From Candidatus Thiodictyon syntrophicum (GTDB lineage: Bacteria > Pseudomonadota > Gammaproteobacteria > Chromatiales > Chromatiaceae): a stretch of 64,000 nucleotides of DNA. Below are positions 52,434 through 64,000 of the stretch, in pieces. Position numbers and translations under genes: made by a program. The DNA is taken from contig NZ_CP020370.1 of NCBI RefSeq assembly GCF_002813775.1, forward strand, positions 6,287,501 to 6,351,500, read 5' to 3'. The stretch's first letter is position 1. Each line of letters opens with the position of its first letter. Below the pieces are notes generated by a model that had not been told where the DNA came from, searched no databases, and worked only from the letters and a program-made list of their open reading frames with translations.

Positions 52434-53321
52434 CTAGTCCTCCGGGCCCAGACTCCGCGGGTCCTGGTGAATGGTGATGTCCGCACCGGGGAACTCGACC
52501 CGCAGGGCGTCCTCCACCTGGTCGCAGATGCGGTGGGCGGCCAGCAGCGCCAGGTCGTCGTCCAACTCCAGGTGCAGTTGCATCACCGGGACGGAGCCGG
52601 AGCGACGGGTGCGCAGTCCATGCACGCCCAGGACCCCCGGCACGGCCGCCGCCACCGACGCGATCCGGGCCCGGTCCGCCACGCTCAGTTCCCGATCCAT
52701 CAGCAGGTCCACCGCCTCCCGGGCGATCTGAACGGCGCTGTAGAGGATGAAGAGGGCGATCCCCAACGCGAAGATGGGGTCCAGGCCCGGCCAGCCGAAC
52801 ATGGCGCAGACGAGCGCAATGAGGGTGGCCGAGTTGGTGGCCAGATCCGTGGCGTAGTGCAGCGCGTCGGCACGGATCGCAGTCGATCCGGTCGCGCGGA
52901 TGACGTGCCGCTGAAAGCTCAGCAGGAGCAGGGTCGCGGCCATGGCGAAGACCATGACCGCGACACCGACGCCCAGGTCTGCCAGGGGCTGGGGATGGAT
53001 CAGCCGGTCCACTGCCTGCAGGGCCAGGAAGGCGGCGGAACCGGCAATGAAGGCGGCCTGGCCCAGGCCGGCGAGGGACTCGGCCTTGCCGTGCCCGAAC
53101 CGGTGCTCGGCGTCCGCGGGCAGCAGCGACCAGCGCACCGCGAGCAGGTTGACCACCGAGGCCCCCACGTCCATCAGCGAGTCCACCAGGCTCGCCAGGA
53201 CACTGACCGAACCCGTGATCAGCCAGGCGGCCAGTTTAACCAGGATCAACGTCGTTGCGGTCGCCACCGAGGCATAGGTGGCGAGGCGCAACAGGCGCGC
53301 CTTGTCATGGGCCATGGTCAT
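52434..53321 (-). CDS. Cation diffusion facilitator transporter (FieF/YiiP-like)
   Basis: A 295-residue inner-membrane exporter. It has six hydrophobic segments, the first metal site in LVDSLMDVGASVVNLLAVRW (with the D-x3-D motif), the FGHGKAESLAGL loop and the second site HYATDLATNS. A cytoplasmic C-terminal ferredoxin-like domain follows (VMQLHLELDDDL). The family exchanges Zn, Fe, Mn or Co against protons; the exact metal is not predictable. Its start overlaps the end of the cyanophycin synthetase gene (ATGA), so it is coupled to the cyanophycin operon. Confidence 0.9.
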   Translation of the reverse strand: MTMAHDKARLLRLATYASVATATTLILVKLAAWLITGSVSVLASLVDSLMDVGASVVNLLAVRWSLLPADAEHRFGHGKAESLAGLGQAAFIAGSAAFLALQAVDRLIHPQPLADLGVGVAVMVFAMAATLLLLSFQRHVIRATGSTAIRADALHYATDLATNSATLIALVCAMFGWPGLDPIFALGIALFILYSAVQIAREAVDLLMDRELSVADRARIASVAAAVPGVLGVHGLRTRRSGSVPVMQLHLELDDDLALLAAHRICDQVEDALRVEFPGADITIHQDPRSLGPED

Positions 53322-55471
53322 GTCGGATAGGTCTCAAGAGCGGCGCGGATGCGCTCGGGGGCGAGCCCCAGGGCCCAGGCCGCGGCGATGGCGGCGAGCA
53401 CGTTGCCGACCGGGACCAGGGCGTGGCCGGCCGCATCACAGGGCAGCCGCGCCAGGGGCAACAGGGCCTCTTCGCTGTCGCCCGTGACCAGCCGGATGCC
53501 GCCGTCACGCTCCACCACCGCCCGGCCGCCCTGCGCCAGCGCGGCAGTAACCACCGGGTGCGCCGGGTCGCGGGCGAACCACAGCACGGCGCCGCGGCTG
53601 CGCTCGGCCATCCCCGCCACCAGGGGGTCTTCGGCGTTGAGCACGGCGCAGCCGTGGGCCGGCACCGCCTCCACCACACAGCGCTTGACCCGTACCAGGT
53701 CCTCCAGGGCCGCACTGTCGGGTAGTGCCTGCGTGTCTGCGTGAGCGAGCGCGGTCACCACGCCGACCAGGCACCGGTCGAAGCCCAGCCCCTCGCCGCG
53801 GATACCCTCAGCCCCGACCGCCAGCACCGCCGCCGTGAGGCGCGGGTAGAGCAGCAGGTCATGGGCCGCCGCGGGACCGGTGGCGTCGCGCGCCGCCCAC
53901 CGGCGCTCGCCGAGTTCCAGGCCCGCACTGGTCGCCAGCCCCACCAGGGCGTCCGGGGCGCGCAGGAGCCAGGCAATGAGCCGGGCGGTGCCGTTCTTGC
54001 CGCTGACCCCGGTGACCGCCACCAGGGGGATGCGGCCGTCCTCCCCGGGCGGAAACAGCAGGTCGATGATCGCCTCGCCCACCGGGCGCGGCAGACCGGC
54101 GGAGGGCTCCAGGTGCATCCGCAGCCCCGGCCCCGCATTGACCTCCACGATAGCCCCGCCCTGCTCCTCCAGGGGCCGACCGATGTCCTGCGCCAGCACA
54201 TCGATCCCGGCCAGATCGAGGCCGACCACGCGGGCCGCGTCCACCACGCGGGCGGCGACCTGCGGGTGCACCAGGTCGGTCACATCGGTGGCGGTCCCGC
54301 CGGTGCTCAGATTGGCGTTGTGACGCAGGATGACCCGCACCCCGGCCGCGGGCACCGACTCGGGCGTCAGCCCCTGTTCGGCGAGGATCGCCAGCGCAAT
54401 CGGGTCCAGTTCGATCAGGCTCAGCATCGTGGCATGGCCGGCGCTGCGGCGCGGGTCCCGATTGACCTCAGCCACCAGTTGGCGGACGCTCGCCTGCCCG
54501 TCACCGCTCACCTGGGCCGGCTCGCGGCACGCCGCCGCGACCACGCGCTCACCGACCACCAGCAGACGAAAGTCGGCACCGGGGATGTAGCGCTCGCACA
54601 GGACGTCCGAACCCTCCCGGCGGGCGGCGGCGAAGGCCTGCTCCACCTGCCCCGGCGTACTCAGGTTGGCCGTCACACCGCGACCGTGGTTGCCGTAACG
54701 CGGCTTCACCACCACCGGCGCACCCGACTCCTGGGCAAAGCGCCAGGCCTCCTCCGCGCTCGCCACCGGCCGCCCCTCCGGTACCGGCACCCCCGCGGCG
54801 GCCAGCAGCATGCGCGTCAAGTCCTTATCCTGGGCGATCGACTCGGCGATGGCGCTGGTCCGATCGGTCTCCGCGGTCCAGACCCGGCGTTGGCGCTGAC
54901 CCCAGCCCAGTTGCAGCAGGTTCTCGCTGCCCAGGCGCCGCACCGGGATGCGCCGGGCGCGGGCGGCGGCGGCAATGGCATGGGTGCTGGGGCCCAGGCG
55001 CACCTCATGACAGAGCGCGCGCAGCGGTTCCAATTCGTCCGCCGGGTCGAAGGGGCGGTCATGGATGGCGGCGAGCAACAGGGTCCGGGCGGACTCCACC
55101 GCCGCACGGCCCAGGGCCTCCTCCGCGTATTCGATGGCGACCCGGTAGACCCCATCCTCGTCGGTCTCCCGGGCCCGGCCGAAGCCGACCGGGGTGCCGG
55201 CCAGGGTCTGCAACTCCAGGGTGACATGCTCCAGGCAGTGGGCCATGTAGGTGCCCCGCTCCAGGCGCTGGAAGAAGCCCCCGCGCTCACCCGGGCTACA
55301 GTGATGCTCGATCAGGGACGGCAGCCAGGACTTGAGACGGTCATTGAAACCCGGGATCTCCTCCGAGGAGCGATCCTTGATCTCCCCCAGGTCCAGCAAC
55401 AGTTCGAGCACCGGGCGGTGCGCCCAGATATTGGGACCGCGCAGGACCCGCAGGCGTCGGATATCGAGCAA
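53318..55471 (-). CDS. cphA: Cyanophycin synthetase-like protein with intact ATP-grasp, truncated Mur ligase
   Basis: 717 residues from a TTG start preceded by AAGGGGG; full CphA is ~870. The N-terminal domain (HRPVLELLLDLGEI, GTYMAHCLEHVTLELQTLAG) and the ATP-grasp domain (APVVVKPRYGNHGRGVTANL, then ILRHNANLSTGGTATDVTDL and IVEVNAGPGLRMHLEPS) are complete. The Mur-ligase P-loop, however, reads VTGVSGKNGTARL instead of GTNGKTT, and the protein stops at ALETYPT without the C-terminal ligase domain. CphA needs ATP-grasp for Asp addition and the Mur-type site for Arg addition, so this protein alone should lack the second activity. The upstream paralogue at 55525 keeps that activity. Confidence 0.85.
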   Translation of the reverse strand: MLDIRRLRVLRGPNIWAHRPVLELLLDLGEIKDRSSEEIPGFNDRLKSWLPSLIEHHCSPGERGGFFQRLERGTYMAHCLEHVTLELQTLAGTPVGFGRARETDEDGVYRVAIEYAEEALGRAAVESARTLLLAAIHDRPFDPADELEPLRALCHEVRLGPSTHAIAAAARARRIPVRRLGSENLLQLGWGQRQRRVWTAETDRTSAIAESIAQDKDLTRMLLAAAGVPVPEGRPVASAEEAWRFAQESGAPVVVKPRYGNHGRGVTANLSTPGQVEQAFAAARREGSDVLCERYIPGADFRLLVVGERVVAAACREPAQVSGDGQASVRQLVAEVNRDPRRSAGHATMLSLIELDPIALAILAEQGLTPESVPAAGVRVILRHNANLSTGGTATDVTDLVHPQVAARVVDAARVVGLDLAGIDVLAQDIGRPLEEQGGAIVEVNAGPGLRMHLEPSAGLPRPVGEAIIDLLFPPGEDGRIPLVAVTGVSGKNGTARLIAWLLRAPDALVGLATSAGLELGERRWAARDATGPAAAHDLLLYPRLTAAVLAVGAEGIRGEGLGFDRCLVGVVTALAHADTQALPDSAALEDLVRVKRCVVEAVPAHGCAVLNAEDPLVAGMAERSRGAVLWFARDPAHPVVTAALAQGGRAVVERDGGIRLVTGDSEEALLPLARLPCDAAGHALVPVGNVLAAIAAAWALGLAPERIRAALETYPT

Positions 55472-55524
55472 TTAGACCCCCTTGCGCCGGCGCATGGCAC
55501 GGCTGGGCAGAAGAAACGTAAACC

Positions 55525-57813
55525 TCACGCCTGCATCACCGGGGCCGCCGCGGCGCCCAGCGGCAGGTCATGCAACGGCAGTTCGCGGAACGCCTGATCC
55601 GCGGCCAGGCGGGCGCGGACATAGTCGACAGTCTCGTCGATCAGGTCCGCCTGGACCAGGATCAGGTCCCCCGGCTGGGCCAGCCACAGGGCCGCCTCCA
55701 CCGCGGACCGCCAGCCGTGGATGGTCTGGACCTCCTGGACCCGCTCGCCGGCCGCCAACCCCCGGGCGAACAGTGACATGATCTCCCCCGGCAGGCGCCC
55801 ACGGGTGCAGTGGTCCTCATAGAGGATGACCCGGTCGAAGGCCTGGCCCAGGATCTCCCCCTGCCGGATCAGGTCGGCATCGCGCCGGTCCCCCGCGGCC
55901 GAATAGACCGCGAGGCGCCGCCGGTGGGGAAAGGAGTCCAGGGCTGCGATCATCGCCAGCAGGGCCGAGGGGTTGTGACCATAGTCGAAGACCACGGTCG
56001 CACCGTTGATGCAGAGCACGTTGAAACGCCCGGGACTGCGGTCCAGATCGGCACCGAAGGTTTCAAGCGCGGCCCCGATGGTCTCCAGCGGCAGACCCAG
56101 GGCCCACAGGGTCGCCGCGGCGGCCAGGCAATTCTCCACCTGGAAGCCGATCCGCCCGCCGTTGGTGAGCGGAATCCGGCCCAGCGACAACAGGACCCAC
56201 TGCGCCTCGCCCGCCGCCAGGATCAGGTCCTGCCCTTGGACGAAGGCCGCCCGGGCGCCCTCGCGCCGCTGCCGCAGGATCACCGGGTGCTCGCCGTCGC
56301 GCGCAAAAAACAGCACCGAGCCCTTGCAGTGAGCGGCCATCCGCGCGACCAGCGGGTCCACGGCATTGAGCACGGCGGTCCCCCCGGGGGAGACCCCGCG
56401 CACCACCGCCTGCTTGACCTCGGCCAACTCCGCCACGGTGTCGACCCATCCCAGTCCCAGGTGATCCCCCTCGCCGATATTGGTGACCACCGCCACGTCA
56501 CAGGCGTCGAAGCCCAGCCCCTCGCGCAGGATACCGCCGCGGGCGGTCTCCAGCACCGCGGCCTCGACCTGGGGATTGAGCAGGACCAGGCGTGCGCTCT
56601 GGGGTCCGGCGCAATCGTCGGTGTCGATACGCCGATCCGCGAGATAGATGCCGTCGGTGCAGGTCATGCCGACGAAGCGTCCGGAAACGCTGAGCCCATG
56701 GGCGATCAGCCGGGTGACCGTGGTCTTGCCGTTGGTACCGGAGACGGCGACGATCGGGATGCGCCCGGTCTCACCCGGCCGGTATAGGGTCTCCAGGAAG
56801 GCCGCGGCGATCGGGCGTGAGCGCACGCACTCCACATAGAGGTCCAGCGGCGGGGCCGCGATGACCTCGCTGATCAGCCCGCCCTGGGACTCCAGGGGCC
56901 GGGCGATGTCCGCCGCCGCCAGGCGGACCTCCGCCGTCTCCAACCCCAGGACCCGGGCGGCGTCCAGGACCCGGGCGCGCACTTCCCCGTGGATCAGTCC
57001 GCTCACGTCGGTGACCGTCGGGCCGGCGCCATTGCCGCCCCGCCCCGGCTGCCAGTGCAGGGCGGCCAGGACGCGCCGCCCGGCGACCAGGACCCGGTAG
57101 TGGGCGCCCGTGACCGGCGCCTCGGCGCAGGCCAGACCGGCACACTCCAGAAGCGCACTGAGCAGGCCGCGCTGCGCCGCCGCGTGCTCGGCCAGGGGTG
57201 TGTCGGGGGCCAGCGCGGTACACGGCAGGCGCCGCTGCCGGGCACCGTGGCCGAGCTGCAAGACGCTCCCGGGGAGCCGCCGGGTGGGGATACCGCGCGC
57301 CTGGGCCGCCCGCAGCAGCGCCGCACAGGTCGGCGTCGGGCCCGCCTCCAAGGCCAGGGCGCGCAGCCCCGGCACAGGATTGGGAAGTTCGCCGTCGGAC
57401 GCGGCCAGCCCGGCGCGGACCAGGTCCAGGGCGGCCGCCGCGCAGGCCTGCGGGGGGGCGCCCTCGACGAAGGTAAAGGCGAGCCGGTACAGACCCGGCT
57501 GCGAGGTCCGGCGCACCCGGGAGAACCCCGGCCGCACCCCGCTCTGAGCGCACAGTTCCAGGATGGTGGCGAGGAACACCTGGGCGAGCCAGCGCTGATG
57601 TCGCCGCTCATGCAATGGATGGTCCGGGTCCGCGGGCGGTCGCCGCGGCAGGGTCAGGCCCGGCAGCCGGGCGGTCAACTGGGCGCGCAGACGCCCGGCC
57701 GATACCAGCCACTCACCGGGCGGGTGATCGGACAGATCGAACCAGACCTCGACCACCGGAAAATCGGCCCAAAGGTTGGGGCCGAGCAACGCACGGACTC
57801 TGCGGATATCCAC
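55525..57813 (-). CDS. Cyanophycin synthetase-like protein with intact Mur ligase, collapsed ATP-grasp
   Basis: 762 residues from a GTG at 57813. The start (DIRRVRALLGPNLWADFPVV) is CphA-like, but the N-domain HxxEH motif is lost (RWLAQVFLATILEL). The ATP-grasp region is reduced to ~100 residues: after RGLLSALLECAGLACAEAPV it goes straight to HYRVLVAGRRVLAALHW, and the metal-binding E-V-N is altered (SEVIAAPPL). The Mur ligase part is intact: GTNGKTT near residue 360, the central domain, and the C-terminal domain with VVFDYGHNPSALLA. Expected activity is Arg addition only. It lies 53 bases upstream of the partner gene on the same strand, so the two are cotranscribed. Confidence 0.82.
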   Translation of the reverse strand: MDIRRVRALLGPNLWADFPVVEVWFDLSDHPPGEWLVSAGRLRAQLTARLPGLTLPRRPPADPDHPLHERRHQRWLAQVFLATILELCAQSGVRPGFSRVRRTSQPGLYRLAFTFVEGAPPQACAAAALDLVRAGLAASDGELPNPVPGLRALALEAGPTPTCAALLRAAQARGIPTRRLPGSVLQLGHGARQRRLPCTALAPDTPLAEHAAAQRGLLSALLECAGLACAEAPVTGAHYRVLVAGRRVLAALHWQPGRGGNGAGPTVTDVSGLIHGEVRARVLDAARVLGLETAEVRLAAADIARPLESQGGLISEVIAAPPLDLYVECVRSRPIAAAFLETLYRPGETGRIPIVAVSGTNGKTTVTRLIAHGLSVSGRFVGMTCTDGIYLADRRIDTDDCAGPQSARLVLLNPQVEAAVLETARGGILREGLGFDACDVAVVTNIGEGDHLGLGWVDTVAELAEVKQAVVRGVSPGGTAVLNAVDPLVARMAAHCKGSVLFFARDGEHPVILRQRREGARAAFVQGQDLILAAGEAQWVLLSLGRIPLTNGGRIGFQVENCLAAAATLWALGLPLETIGAALETFGADLDRSPGRFNVLCINGATVVFDYGHNPSALLAMIAALDSFPHRRRLAVYSAAGDRRDADLIRQGEILGQAFDRVILYEDHCTRGRLPGEIMSLFARGLAAGERVQEVQTIHGWRSAVEAALWLAQPGDLILVQADLIDETVDYVRARLAADQAFRELPLHDLPLGAAAAPVMQA

Positions 57814-58497: not shown

Positions 58498-59001
58498 ATG
58501 AGCAAACTCTCGGCCGGAATCAAAGAGGAGTTCCTGGCGATCCTGCCGCCGACGCTCTTCTTCTTCATCGCCCTGCACATCGTCGCGCTCATCCGCAGCC
58601 TGATGCTCGAGGGCACCGGCATCGCGCTCGGCACCACGCTGTCGGTCGCGGTCGCGGCGCTGATCCTCGGCAAGGCCGTCCTGTTGGCGGACCTGCTGCC
58701 CGTCATCAATCGCTATCCGGACCGGCCCCTGATCTACAACATCACCTGGAAGACCCTGATTTACCTCGTGGTCGCCGGGCTCATCCACTACCTGGAGCGT
58801 CTCATCGACTTCGCCCGACAGGCGGGCGGCATCATCGCCGGCAACGAGAAGCTGCTTGCCGAACAGGTCTGGCCGCATTTTCTCGCGGTCCAGCTCCTGC
58901 TGCTGGTGCTGATCCTCATGTATTGCACCATGCGTGAACTGACCCGCGTGATCGGCCGGGAGCGGATGCACCGGATCTTTTTCGGACCGCGCACCCAGTG
59001 A
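58498..59001 (+). CDS. Small membrane protein of unknown function
   Basis: A 167-residue protein with four predicted membrane segments: LPPTLFFFIALHIVALIRSL, ALGTTLSVAVAALILGKAVL, IYNITWKTLIYLVVAGLIHY and FLAVQLLLLVLILMYCTMRE. Charged loops (INRYPDRP, LERLIDFARQ) and a basic C-terminus (RVIGRERMHRIFFGPRTQ) flank them. No known domain is recognised. It lies between the cyanophycin genes and the ABC transporter, so a link to that locus is possible but unproven. The ATG at 58498 lacks a strong ribosome site. Confidence 0.6.
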   Translation: MSKLSAGIKEEFLAILPPTLFFFIALHIVALIRSLMLEGTGIALGTTLSVAVAALILGKAVLLADLLPVINRYPDRPLIYNITWKTLIYLVVAGLIHYLERLIDFARQAGGIIAGNEKLLAEQVWPHFLAVQLLLLVLILMYCTMRELTRVIGRERMHRIFFGPRTQ

Positions 59002-59351: not shown

Positions 59352-59807
59352 TCATTCGCGATGGCCGGCATTGATAGTCGACCCACGCACGCTGCCGCCC
59401 ACCACGACGCTGCCGGGTCCGGCGGCGACCGCACCCGCGCCCTGGGCAATCACATTGCCGTTCCCGCGTATCCCGACCGCAGTGACAGCGGCTGACTTCG
59501 ACTGATTGCGCAGGTCGGCGAGTTCATCCCTCAGGATGGGATCAGACAGCAGGAGTCGTTTGACGGCCACGCGCAGGGCCGCCTGGGCGTCCGCGTCGTC
59601 GGGGGTCAGGGCCAGTTCCTGCAAGGCGTCCGAGTCCGCGCCAAGCCGACCGTGCAATTTGTCCCAGATGGCCCGGACCTGCTCCCAGCCAGCCTGCCCG
59701 AGTTTTTCCCCGAGCGCCTCGGCGGCCTTCTCGCCGCCTTGAGTCAATAATGGGACCAGCGGGGCGAGCGGACTTGCCAGGTCCGCGGCCAAGGGGGCTA
59801 TGTCCAT
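59352..59807 (-). CDS. Stand-alone helical adaptor-like protein (MDIAPLAADL family)
   Basis: A 151-residue protein starting MDIAPLAADLASPLAPLVPL. The first ~100 residues are helical (KLGQAGWEQVRAIWDKLHGR, TPDDADAQAALRVAVKRLLL). The last ~45 are a Gly/Ala/Val repeat (GIRGNGNVIAQGAGAVAAGP, then GSVVVGGSVRGST). I recall this arrangement as the N-terminal part of larger proteins carrying formylglycine-generating, NACHT or other effector domains. The eroded neighbour at 59941-61265 shows the same N-terminus fused to such a domain. Here the module stands alone and intact. Function is unknown; an adaptor or signalling role is inferred. Confidence 0.55.
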   Translation of the reverse strand: MDIAPLAADLASPLAPLVPLLTQGGEKAAEALGEKLGQAGWEQVRAIWDKLHGRLGADSDALQELALTPDDADAQAALRVAVKRLLLSDPILRDELADLRNQSKSAAVTAVGIRGNGNVIAQGAGAVAAGPGSVVVGGSVRGSTINAGHRE

Positions 59808-59940
59808 GTCGTTCTCCGGTGGTCGAGGTGAGGGGAGGTTTCGTTCTGGTGTCGTGGGATCGAAATGGAATGTGATGGGGGTCTCATGCGTCGCTGGCCA
59901 TTTCCAAGTCGGCCGTGGTAAACCGAGGCATTGGCGCGGA

Positions 59941-61265
59941 CTAGTCGGGGCGGTATAAGACGACGCGGAACCCGACACCGTTGCTGCTGACGGTTGGGTC
60001 TTGGTAGTGCCGGCTGGTGCAACTAGCGCCGCGCAACACGCGTGGATCGGTTCGTTCCGCATCCAGGCCCTCGCGACCGTCTTGCGGCTTGTATGCGTAG
60101 CTGCACAAGCGGCTGTAAGTCGCCCGTATGGGGTAACCGACGCACATGAACTCGTCATGGCCGAGGTGGGATATTGCCTCCGGACGATAACCAACTGAAA
60201 AGTCGACCACTTCCGTCCGAGTGCGACTCCACAGACTGCGGGTCCACTCCGATACATTACCACTCATGTCCAGGCAACCGAAGGGATCGCCCCGTCAGGA
60301 AATACGCCGACTGGAGTAGTCTTACCCAGTCCTAGCCGTGGGCAATTGCAGCGAGTCACCTCGAATGTGTCTCCCCATGTCCCCATGGATACTGACGCTG
60401 GTCTTGATCCCCACGGGCTGCCTTTTCCCACTCCGCCTCGCTCGGCAGGCGGATATCCTGTTCCGTGACCATGCCCAGCCAGACGCAATACAGGTAGGCC
60501 TGGTATCAGGTGATGTTGACCACCGGATGACCCTCCAACCGCTTGGGCGGACGGTCGCCTTCGCAATGGCCAGGTACGCGGGCGACACGCCCCTCCGTGT
60601 GCTTGACAAATAGACGATACTACGCATTGGTGATGGGAACCCGCGAGATCCAATACGCAGGTAACTGCAATTGGTGAAGGTGAACGGGTGTCTCGTGGGT
60701 AGGGCCGCGTACGGTTGCCTTCAAGCTCCAGGTAGCGGTTGCGGCTGATGACGTGCCGGAGATAGCGCCCAAGGGCCAACTCCCGGTCGGCCGCACTCAG
60801 GGATAGCGGGCTAGCATCGAGCAGCGGGAAAATATTTTGGGTCAGATTGCCGCGGACGACGGTAGAACCTCCGGTCGCGGCGGTCGCTCCTTGACCCTGG
60901 GCCAGGGTATTACCGTGGCCCTGAATTCCGGTCCAGGTGCCGCCCGCAGACCGGGTGTCGTCAACCAGGGCGGCGAGCCCCTGGGCCAACGAGGGATCGT
61001 CCTTGAGCAGACGCGTTAGCTCTCCGCACAACGCCGCTTGCGCATCCGGGTCCCCCGGTTGGGCCGCGACCTCCTTCGCCGCCGCCGAGTCCTGGCCGAG
61101 CACGGGACCGAGCCGCTCCCAGATGACGTCGGCCTGTCTCCGGCCTGATTGGTCCAGCCCGTGCCGACCGAGCGGTTGGGTGCCGCGATCTGCGTCCTGG
61201 TTCAGTTCGCGTGGGACCGGGGCCAGCACCCGCACCAGATCCGCGGCCAGCGGCGCAATGTCCAT
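59941..61265 (-). pseudogene. Eroded adaptor-FGE-sulfatase-like (SUMF1) gene
   Basis: It starts at 61265 with MDIAPLAADLVRVLAPV, paralogous to the neighbour, and keeps the Gly-rich repeat (GIQGHGNTLAQGQGA) and a helical stretch (ADRELALGRYLRHVISRNRY). After that the frame breaks. Pieces of a formylglycine-generating-enzyme domain lie in shifted frames: GVPITNA then a stop (60620-60622), GHPVVNIT then a stop replacing Trp (60506-60508) before [30 protein letters not shown], a frameshift near 60370, then TTPVGVFPDGA, and finally MSGNVSEWTRSLW to the end. At least two stops and two frameshifts make it non-functional. Confidence 0.8.
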
Positions 61266-61960: not shown

Positions 61961-64000
61961 GTGGCCACATCACCGCCCCCAGTCGCAGCCGAACCCCCAG
62001 ACCCCCAGATCAACGCGGTGCCCGGCTGGTCCGCCGAGGTCAAGGCCCTGCTCGAACCGGGCGAGACACCGCTCGCCTGGTTCGAGCCGGATCTGGATGA
62101 GCGCCGCCACTATGGGTCCGGGCAACTGTGCCTGACCGAGCGCCGATTGCTCGGGCGGGCGGCGGGGACCGCGGCGGGCGCCTGGGCCTCCTGGCCGCTC
62201 GCGGCCCTCACGTCGGTGCGCGCCGGCCACCGCGGCGCGGCGGGACGCCTGGCGGCCTTGGGGGCGACGGGACTGGTCGCCGTCTGGCACTACACCGGCG
62301 CCCGCACCGCGGCGGCGGCGCAGTTCGCCGAGGTCTGCCAGGCGGCGATCGACCGCGGCCAGGGTCTGACCACGGAGACGGCCGAGGCTCAGGGCACCAT
62401 CTGCCCGACCTGCGGCGCCGCGCTCCCCCCCGGCCAGGCGACCTGTGTCTTTTGCGCCGCCCCGCCGCTGCCGCCGCCGGGGCGCTCGCTGTGGCGCCTG
62501 ACGCGCTTCGCCCGCCCGCGGGCCGGTCTGATCGCGCTCGGCTTCGGCCTGATGCTCGCCTGCACCGCGGCCGGGCTGGTGCCGCCCTATCTCACCATGC
62601 CCTTGTTGGATAAGGTGCTGATCCCACACCAGGCGACCGGGGCCCCGCTCGACTACCACCTGGCGGCACTCTATCTGTACGGTCTGGGCGGCGCGGCGCT
62701 GCTCGCCTGGCTCCTGGGCTGGGGGCGTACCTATGTGATGGCCGTGGTCAGCGAGCGCATCAGCGCGGATCTGCGCACCGAGACCTATGCGCACCTCCAG
62801 GCCCTGTCGCTGGAGTTCTTCGGCGGCAAGCGCACCGGGGACCTGATGTCGCGCATCGGCAGCGACACGGACCGGATCTGCCAGTTTCTGTCGGTGAGCC
62901 TGCTCGATCTGCTCAATGACGTGCTGACCATCCTCATGGTGTCGGCGGTCCTGGTGTCGATCGACCCCCGCCTGGCCCTCGTGACACTCGCCCCCTTTCC
63001 GCTCATCGCCTGGCTGGTGCAGCGGGTGCGGGCGCGGCTGCGCCATGGCTTCGAGCGGGGCAGCCGCGCCTGGGCGGACATGGTGAGTGTGCTGGCCGAC
63101 ACCATCCCCGGCATCCGGGTGGTGAAGGCATTCACCCAGGAGCGACGCGAGATCGAGCGCTTCAACGAGGCCAACGAGAACGTCGTGGGCGCCAATATGC
63201 GCGTCAACACGCTTTGGGCCTTCTTCGGGCCTACCGTGAGTTTCCTCACCGAGCTGGGGCTCCTGGTGGTCTGGGCCTTCGGGGTTTGGGAGGTGGGCCA
63301 GGACAACGTCACCGTGGGCGTGCTGACCGCCTTCGTCGCCTACATCGGGCGCTTCTACGCACGCCTTGAGACCCTGAGCCGCCTGGTGGGCGCCGTGCAG
63401 CGGGCGGCCGCCGCTACCCACCGGGTGTTCGAGATCCTCGACCGGGTGCCCAGCGTGCCGGAACCGCTGCACCCGGTGGCACCGGGCCGGGTGACGGGGG
63501 CCATCGCGTTCCGGGCGGTCTCCTTCCAATACGGGCCGCGGCGCGTCCTGCACGACCTCGACCTTGCCATCCGACCCGGGGAGATGATCGGACTGGTGGG
63601 CCATACGGGGGCGGGCAAGACCACGCTGGTGAATCTGATCTGCCGCTTCTTCGACGTGGCCGAGGGGCAGATCCTGGTCGACGGGGTCGACATCCGCTCC
63701 TTCCCGGTAGAGGCCTATCGGCGCAACATCGGGATCGTGCTGCAGGAGCCCTTCCTGTTCTACGGCACCATCGCCGAGAACATCGCCTATGGCCGCCCGA
63801 GCGCCAGCCGGGCAGAGGTCATGGCCGCCGCGCGCGCCGCGAGCGCGCATGAGTTCATCCTGCGCCTGCCCGACGGCTACGATTCACTGGTCGGGGAGCG
63901 CGGCCAGTCACTCTCCGGCGGCGAGCGCCAGCGCATCTCGATCGCCCGGGCGCTCCTGACCGACCCCCAGATCCTGATCCTGGACGAGGCGACGTCCTCC
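61961..64000 (+). CDS. Cyanophycin-associated ABC transporter, fused TMD-NBD (C-terminus beyond window)
   Basis: 680 codons to the window end, from a GTG at 61961; no good ATG is in frame, so the start is tentative. Residues ~1-145 form a cytoplasmic domain (WSAEVKALLEPGETPLAWFE, LCLTERRLLGRAAG). A zinc ribbon follows (CPTCGAALPPGQATCVFC, ~147-165). An exporter-type transmembrane domain covers ~175-480 (FFGGKRTGDLMSRIGSDTDR). The nucleotide-binding domain has Walker A (GHTGAGKTTLVNL), the signature LSGGERQRISIARALL and Walker B (ILILDEATSS) just before the edge. The architecture with an N-terminal extension and zinc ribbon matches exporters I recall as cyanophycin-metabolism-associated, which fits the nearby synthetases. 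The substrate is unknown. Confidence 0.8.
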   Translation, partial: MATSPPPVAAEPPDPQINAVPGWSAEVKALLEPGETPLAWFEPDLDERRHYGSGQLCLTERRLLGRAAGTAAGAWASWPLAALTSVRAGHRGAAGRLAALGATGLVAVWHYTGARTAAAAQFAEVCQAAIDRGQGLTTETAEAQGTICPTCGAALPPGQATCVFCAAPPLPPPGRSLWRLTRFARPRAGLIALGFGLMLACTAAGLVPPYLTMPLLDKVLIPHQATGAPLDYHLAALYLYGLGGAALLAWLLGWGRTYVMAVVSERISADLRTETYAHLQALSLEFFGGKRTGDLMSRIGSDTDRICQFLSVSLLDLLNDVLTILMVSAVLVSIDPRLALVTLAPFPLIAWLVQRVRARLRHGFERGSRAWADMVSVLADTIPGIRVVKAFTQERREIERFNEANENVVGANMRVNTLWAFFGPTVSFLTELGLLVVWAFGVWEVGQDNVTVGVLTAFVAYIGRFYARLETLSRLVGAVQRAAAATHRVFEILDRVPSVPEPLHPVAPGRVTGAIAFRAVSFQYGPRRVLHDLDLAIRPGEMIGLVGHTGAGKTTLVNLICRFFDVAEGQILVDGVDIRSFPVEAYRRNIGIVLQEPFLFYGTIAENIAYGRPSASRAEVMAAARAASAHEFILRLPDGYDSLVGERGQSLSGGERQRISIARALLTDPQILILDEATSS

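Follow-up and report, generated by a model that had tools for sequence, protein, structure and literature searches.

The stretch of DNA considered here, which we call the window, is the 64-kb segment 6,287,501–6,351,500 of contig C1 of "Thiodictyon syntrophicum" Cad16T, the complete genome of which totals 7,738,984 bp in 3 contigs (C1, 6,837,296 bp; C3, 484,824 bp). It includes two adjacent genes for proteins related to cyanophycin synthetase (CphA), and both open reading frames (ORFs) are found at 53318–57813, where an earlier note on this DNA had placed them. One of them, encoding a long protein of 762 amino acids (aa), is a member of the pair THSYN_26990/26995 of the genome paper, which names the pair 'the two subunits' (PMC5944118). 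In the single-chain enzyme CphA1, addition of Asp at the G site alternates with addition of Arg at the M site, and the N site makes primers (PMC9262961). Residue comparisons support a complementary retention of these active sites in the two proteins, with N and G kept by the short protein (717 aa) and M by the long one. The features of the pair are as follows.

55525–57813, minus strand: long protein, 762 aa, candidate M subunit; N site lost, G collapsed, M site complete (Pfam/NCBIfam, site alignment)
56767–57345, minus strand: collapsed ATP-grasp (G) remnant of the long protein, residues 157–349 (domain borders and alignment)
55528–56766, minus strand: M domain of the long protein (middle and C-terminal parts), residues 350–762, with GTNGKTT and DYGHNP
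55472–55524, minus strand: 53-nt intergenic gap between the long and short genes (sequence)
53318–55471, minus strand: short protein, 717 aa, candidate N+G subunit; N and ATP-grasp sites intact, M broken, no C-terminal M lobe
55004–55471, minus strand: N domain of the short protein, residues 1–156, with C58 and H78xxE81H82 (site role from PMC9262961)
54038–55003, minus strand: intact ATP-grasp (G) domain of the short protein, residues 157–478 (Pfam, alignment)
53321–54037, minus strand: degenerate, truncated M domain of the short protein, residues 479–717 (alignment)

The gap between the genes holds an AAGGGGG stretch ahead of a TTG start, which may be a ribosome-site-like sequence.

Active sites of the two proteins

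Residues were checked in an alignment to Synechocystis CphA1 ("Su"), using the numbering of 7LG5. Apart from residues with a published role, the checked positions belong to the ATP-grasp and Mur motifs. The published roles are those of the N site (a primer-making endo-peptidase), of H267 in G, and of D585 and H586 in M (PMC9262961).

The short protein matches the Pfam models for the cyanophycin synthase N domain, the ATP-grasp domain and the Mur middle domain. Its N site is whole, with C59, H79, E82 and H83 all present, and 8 of 8 checked ATP-grasp residues are in place. The M site is broken: the P-loop reads VSGKNGT, E558 and H586 are lost while the letter at D585 is kept, and the protein stops at Su residue 723, residues 724–869 being absent. 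The earlier note had described just this combination, that is, ATP-grasp domain and N motif kept, P-loop changed and C-terminal ligase domain missing, and the alignment bears it out.

In the long protein, the Mur middle and C-terminal domains are matched in Pfam, the N domain weakly, and ATP-grasp not at all. The note's statements that the M motifs are kept and the N motif lost are confirmed (12 of 12 and 0 of 4 checked residues present, respectively). Its claim of a collapsed ATP-grasp domain also stands but needs softening, since about 60% of the G-domain positions are still there and the collapse is thus partial. Missing from G are Su 238–256, 260–304 and 327–391, about 129 residues that include K261 and H267; N394, D431 and N452 are substituted, R309 and E450 are retained, and position E300 is a gap in one alignment and an aligned E in the other. 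Homology to CphA1 therefore spans the N, G and M domains, for the long protein with G in part and for the short protein without the C-terminal M lobe. Against the NCBIfam model PRK14016 (cut-off 877 bits), the short protein scores 978 bits and the long protein 648. Neither holds the N, G and M sites in one polypeptide as single-chain CphA1 does; each lacks at least one of them.

An intact cphA elsewhere, which the earlier note had named among the findings that would refute its reading, was ruled out by a scan of the complete genome, in which no third CphA was found. Chance, a frameshift or an assembly artefact was likewise ruled out, as the same architecture recurs in 12 genomes.

Conservation and selection in the Chromatiaceae

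"Chromatiaceae" is used here as a label for genomes that share the Genome Taxonomy Database (GTDB) family of the window; G and L numbers denote genomes and loci. The long protein finds matches at E ≤ 1e-60 in 18 of 210 family genomes, and in 13 of these 18 the match is an orthologue. Eight of the 13 belong to the same genus, four to genus g9 and one to genus g55, counts that cover listed genomes, 172 match-free genomes of the search not being itemised; three further listed g9 genomes have no match to the 762-aa protein. With the short protein as query, no orphan orthologue was found at E ≤ 1e-60 in 204 family genomes. That is, the orthologues of the two proteins fall in the same 13 genomes.

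Twelve of the 13 genomes have both genes whole. The thirteenth, G053 (3.0 Mb, same genus), has both in pieces. The endosymbiont 'Ca. T. intracellulare' is reported to have lost cphA (PMC8195481), and we infer from size and genus that G053 fits that organism.

The reciprocal loss that the earlier note had proposed looking for in relatives is found in 12 of 12 whole pairs. All of the long proteins lack the N site, have a collapsed G and keep M; all of the short proteins keep G and lack the C-terminal M lobe, and 11 of the 12 keep N, the exception being G183. That N-site loss apart, the catalytic residues are invariant across the whole pairs, and the order long-then-short is the same in all 12. 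In the short proteins of G107, G150 and G158 the P-loop letters GKTT survive; E558, D585, H586 and the C-terminal lobe are gone. The G183 genome (locus L212), a draft that is 81% complete, also has an extra short-type CphA on its own contig. It is 50% identical to the 717-aa query and nearest to the beta-type short proteins described below (55–63%), and may represent contamination or a second system.

Ratios of nonsynonymous to synonymous substitution rates (dN/dS) were computed with our own Nei-Gojobori script for eight chosen genome comparisons, which draw on 11 of the 12 genomes (all but G183). Whole-gene values are 0.10–0.27 for the long and 0.15–0.28 for the short gene. By domain, the two genes diverge in a largely reciprocal way. 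Between G000 and G023, dN in the short gene is 0.095 for N, 0.090 for G and 0.275 for the M-middle part; in the long gene it is 0.207 for N, 0.188 for the G remnant, 0.073 for M-middle and 0.122 for the M C-terminal part. Mean amino-acid identity over nine of the 12 pairs (without G117, G150 and G183) is 82, 81 and 60% for N, G and M of the short protein, and 62, 66, 83 and 85% for N, G, M and the C-terminal part of M in the long protein. By these measures selection acts on both genes, for the most part on opposite domains: N and G in the short gene, M in the long one.

Related pairs and associated genes

Paired cphA genes also occur in other bacteria, and we compared 17 loci of a kind here termed beta-type, from their grouping with Burkholderiales records in the tree, and three Planctomycetota pairs (L085, L087 and L090). 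The same division is seen in all 20: the N site is gone from the long protein, where G is full-length and M complete, and is kept by the partner, whose M is broken or partly degenerate. The gene order is short (N-containing) then long throughout. The residues thus suggest that the ordinary pair splits N from M, with a G domain in both members in most. The earlier note had seen in the Thiodictyon pair a division of labour beyond that of an ordinary, one-truncated pair. This is upheld in that the beta-type long protein keeps both G and M; however, the ordinary pair is not just one-truncated, since its long protein is without the N site in 17 of 17 loci and the pair already divides N from M.

The Chromatiaceae and beta-type (cphA/cphA') pairs are alike in being adjacent paralogues, of which the short one has the N site and a dead, truncated M; beside the beta-type pair lies a transporter gene of the ATP-binding cassette (ABC) type in 17 of 17 loci, with a DUF1854 gene nearby. 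They differ in gene order, which is reversed, and in the long protein, in which G is full in the beta-type and collapsed in 12 of 12 Chromatiaceae. As judged from the aligned sequences, this difference makes the Chromatiaceae arrangement, N+G versus M, a separate and more complete split.

The G residue at position 267 was tabulated for 16 of the 17 beta-type pairs (L192, a near-duplicate of L191, was dropped). Q stands there in 14 long proteins and H in two (G406 and G506). Among the short proteins, 12 of 16 have H, which is lost in G406 and G506. In G285 and in G787 (locus L203), the long protein has Q and the short one no H. We considered reading H267Q in beta-type long proteins as loss of G and dropped the idea, because CphAs whose N and M sites are intact can have Q as well (L084, L092, L094, L099, L107, L108 and L190).

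The three Planctomycetota loci each have two nearly full-length CphAs, one lacking only the N site and the other with a partly degenerate C-terminal M lobe; by their sequences, such pairs are possibly an early stage of the split. Another layout is seen at L079, L080, L081, L100, L101 and L103, where a single-chain CphA1 with all sites is followed by a protein matching the M domain (frames of 561–719 aa). Where its sites were checked (L100, L101 and L103), this second protein has the M site and neither the N nor the ATP-grasp site.

The origin of the pairs was approached with a tree of 100 rows, from which 18 ORFs were left out as broken, partial, redundant or of another type, and with a second tree that kept 59 of the 100 rows, long branches such as that of the G183 short protein and near-duplicates having been removed. 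In both trees, the Chromatiaceae, beta-type and Planctomycetota pairs, together with some single CphAs (from Planctomycetota, L092 and G742), form one clade apart from Synechocystis CphA1 (support 100/99 in the 59-row tree). Four groups within it are each well supported in the 59-row tree, the G183 short protein being absent: Chromatiaceae long proteins, Chromatiaceae short proteins, beta-type plus Planctomycetota long proteins, and the corresponding short proteins. By the approximately unbiased (AU) test, neither a grouping of all long proteins (p 0.43) nor a duplication within the Chromatiaceae (p 0.45) is rejected; a grouping of all short proteins has support of 83/38.

The other genes near the Thiodictyon pair are as follows.

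52434–53321, minus strand: FieF-type cation efflux gene, the ATG of which overlaps the stop of the short gene (ATGA) (Pfam/NCBIfam)
58498–59001, plus strand: hydrophobic-looking ORF of 167 aa upstream of the pair, on the opposite strand; no Pfam/NCBIfam match
59352–61265, minus strand: two ORFs, neither with a family match, lying between the pair and the ABC gene
61961–64000, plus strand: exporter-type ABC transporter NF052233, continuing to about 64240 beyond the window (NCBIfam)
about 64277–64762, outside the window: DUF1854 gene NF052234, directly after the ABC transporter (NCBIfam)

The two ORFs at 59352–61265 stand between genes that adjoin in several relatives; one stretch in them resembles, by eye, a formylglycine-generating-enzyme domain. 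The FieF-type gene adjoins the pair in six of the eight listed same-genus genomes (G000, G061, G023, G125, G150 and G053); G107, G158 and the four g9 genomes read do not have it there. Zinc has tentatively been assigned to the N site of CphA1 (PMC9262961), and a metal link between the FieF-type gene and the N site is possible.

The window transporter scores 1190 bits (cut-off 880) against NF052233, 'cyanophycin metabolism-associated ABC transporter', and the DUF1854 protein 179.5 bits (cut-off 150) against NF052234. The earlier note had noticed neither of these genes, nor that cyanophycinase is missing. The ABC gene begins 4.1 kb upstream of the pair and is divergent from it. In the Chromatiaceae an ABC gene lies beside the pair in seven of 11 loci read, and on another contig in G061, G023, G125 and G183. 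Genome-wide (E ≤ 1e-150), the transporter is found in 12 of the 13 Chromatiaceae pair genomes, that is, in all but G053, and also in G742, and in none of 24 other genomes with CphA-like matches. No transporter appears in the 1.7–2.5 kb of upstream sequence of the three Planctomycetota pairs.

NF052234 occurs in 21 of 398 Pseudomonadota genomes, and these are exactly the 21 in which the long protein has a match at E ≤ 1e-130; in the same 398, it is found in none of the eight genomes with weaker CphA matches. The coincidence has a Fisher p of 2e-35, kinship being ignored, and the 1e-130 divide was set after the scores had been seen. The CphA and DUF1854 scans, each of 398 genomes, are treated as the same draw since their listed genomes agree. 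A pair was read in 15 of the 21 genomes, the window genome included, and G742 has one N-containing CphA that runs into a contig end. L092 and G742, with one CphA seen in each, have both the ABC and the DUF1854 gene, and the link to these genes is therefore a trait of the lineage and not of the split.

Above its cut-off, the cyanophycinase model TIGR02069 finds G849 (beta-type) twice, once at a second locus, and G075 (single CphA) beside cphA; G164 (at a contig end) and G883 fall below it. Besides its pair, G849 (L194) thus has a second locus with two more CphA-like genes along with a cyanophycinase. Cyanophycinase beside cphA is described as scarce in betaproteobacteria (PMC10206079; PMC5178258; PMC5670224). 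A 'Group 1' cluster from activated sludge has two cphA copies and an ABC transporter and no cphB, and in Accumulibacter both cphA copies are evenly expressed (PMC10687191). Together with the NCBIfam families NF052233 and NF052234, that cluster describes the same kind of gene set as is found here; in the available text of that account, the partition of sites, DUF1854 and the G-deleted form are not mentioned.

A proposed two-subunit enzyme

What has been observed is how the residues are distributed, that this pattern is conserved, that constraint is largely reciprocal, and that no other CphA is present. Building on them, we consider it probable that the pair encodes a two-subunit cyanophycin-synthetase-like enzyme, with N and G on the short protein and M on the long one. 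A physical complex, mutual dependence of the two proteins, an order of reactions, and Asp and Arg as substrates are what the proposal adds by inference. The endo-peptidase-like N site of the short protein would make primers and its ATP-grasp G site would add Asp at the chain end; the Mur-type M site of the long protein would then place Arg or a similar amino acid on the Asp side chain. What is left of the lost domains (N and G in the long protein, M in the short one) would be a probable scaffold for assembly and polymer binding. In a mixed oligomer, the growing chain would move back and forth between the sites of adjacent subunits, in the way that in CphA1 it alternates between those of a single chain. 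With less confidence, the product may be passed to the associated ABC exporter, not stored and remobilised by cyanophycinase.

CphA1 (7LG5, 7WAC) is the nearest known system. It has the same N-G-M order and is the best sequence and fold match for both proteins, which jointly have its three sites. In CphA1 all sites are in one chain, in contrast to the N+G and M chains here, where the long protein has lost the ATP-binding part of G and the short one is without the C-terminal M lobe. Engineered SuCphA1 heterodimers of the type N-G+M+/N+G-M- are active, somewhat more with primer than in its absence (PMC9262961), indicating that the N site can work across protomers.

Several observations weigh against the proposal. 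The same heterodimers separate N from G and M together, not G from M, and site geometry matters in CphA1 (PMC9262961). The G183 short protein has lost its N site as well. Domain contrasts in dN/dS are noisier in closer genome comparisons, being weak or reversed in some: values are nearly flat in the G107/G158 short gene (N 0.163, G 0.181, M 0.169), the C-terminal part of M is the highest domain of the G000/G061 long gene (0.260), and M-middle (0.183) exceeds N (0.156) in the G103/G117 long gene. Structure prediction, a check that the earlier note had called for, gave a divided answer. Monomer models from AlphaFold, made with 12-row alignments, have CphA1 structures as their best Protein Data Bank (PDB) matches, with strong E-values and TM-scores of about 0.4; however, with a mean predicted local distance difference test (pLDDT) of 68.5 and 64.2 and a predicted template modelling (pTM) score of 0.45 and 0.49, they are too weak to show an interface between the two proteins. 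TIGR02069 finds nothing in the 13 Chromatiaceae pair genomes and PF03575 nothing in the window genome, and IaaA-type genes (PF01112) are not found in the eight genomes searched, which gives no support to ordinary storage and re-use. The strain's proteome paper has 0 occurrences of the word 'cyanophycin' and of both locus tags in its main text (PMC6413534). Finally, wild-type R. eutropha, which has two homologues, is reported to be without cyanophycin (PMC11362209).

That last report also speaks for a different product. It is possible, though we doubt it, that the enzyme is heteromeric as proposed and makes some other amino-acid isopeptide or short oligomer, which the ABC transporter exports. 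Synechocystis CphA1 lies outside the clade of these CphAs, and the genomes with close matches coincide with DUF1854 (21 of 21), have the exporter and mostly lack cyanophycinase. On the other side, the 12 M-site residues of the long protein and the eight G-site residues of the short one match CphA1, with the proviso that none of them is tied to the choice of Arg or Asp.

Separate work by the two proteins seems improbable. CphA2 (8FXH, 7TA5) has an active G and a truncated M. The short protein resembles it in this architecture, matches CphA2 chains by sequence (194 bits to 8fxh) and by fold, and might, like CphA2, join ready-made beta-Asp-Arg dipeptides at its G site alone, leaving the 762-aa protein as an independent Mur-type ligase. 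It is a point in favour that CphA2 works with a single site (PMC10206079). Yet the 717-aa protein is far nearer to CphA1 (585 bits to 7wac), keeps the N-site motif for primer making and has an M-active partner; moreover, no cyanophycinase was found to supply dipeptides, and the two genes co-occur and are broken together.

We also regard it as unlikely that this is an ordinary cphA/cphA' pair in which loss of G from the long protein is a neutral extra with no functional meaning. The distribution of position 267 in beta-type pairs (H in 12 of 16 short proteins, Q in 14 of 16 long ones) would let G be partly redundant in the ordinary pair; but Q is also found where N and M are intact and is hence no sign of loss, and the short protein has the sole CphA-type G site of the genome, in a well-conserved domain. 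Decay of both genes into functionless remnants, which their state in G053 might suggest, is very hard to reconcile with open frames in the 12 other genomes, dN/dS of 0.10–0.28 in all eight comparisons per gene, and invariant catalytic residues.

With the two-subunit enzyme as the preferred reading, a broader proposal can be put forward tentatively, and we would sooner expect it to fail than to hold. It is that a CphA lineage coupled to an ABC exporter and DUF1854 makes an exported isopeptide with an Asp backbone and has repeatedly moved toward two-subunit enzymes, the Chromatiaceae pair being its fully split, obligate form, in which one subunit makes primer and backbone and the other loads the side chains. 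On the genomic evidence, export of the product is a lead and not a result.

Paired cphA genes, the ABC neighbour and the missing cyanophycinase are already known, and NCBIfam already names both associates. Among the results listed by literature searches we found no report of a CphA with G and M sites on two chains, nor did we find a paper tying DUF1854 to cyanophycin, the coverage mostly excluding subscription papers. As far as searched, what is new is that N+G and M are split in a conserved way, with physical deletion of the ATP-binding part of G and largely reciprocal divergence, along with the site-by-site account of the ordinary pair and the exact match between the CphA lineage and DUF1854 in the sampled genomes.

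The way in which the growing chain travels between G and M in cyanophycin synthetase is a topic of current interest. In the Chromatiaceae, evolution seems to have put these sites on separate polypeptides, so that each half-reaction could be followed by itself, combined with the other or titrated, with no need to mutate the enzyme. A two-part synthetase of natural origin could also help in making modified polymers. The exporter and the missing cyanophycinase offer a possible reason why R. eutropha, with two cphA genes, is reported to be without cyanophycin, and they make a testable case for an exported product in this branch.

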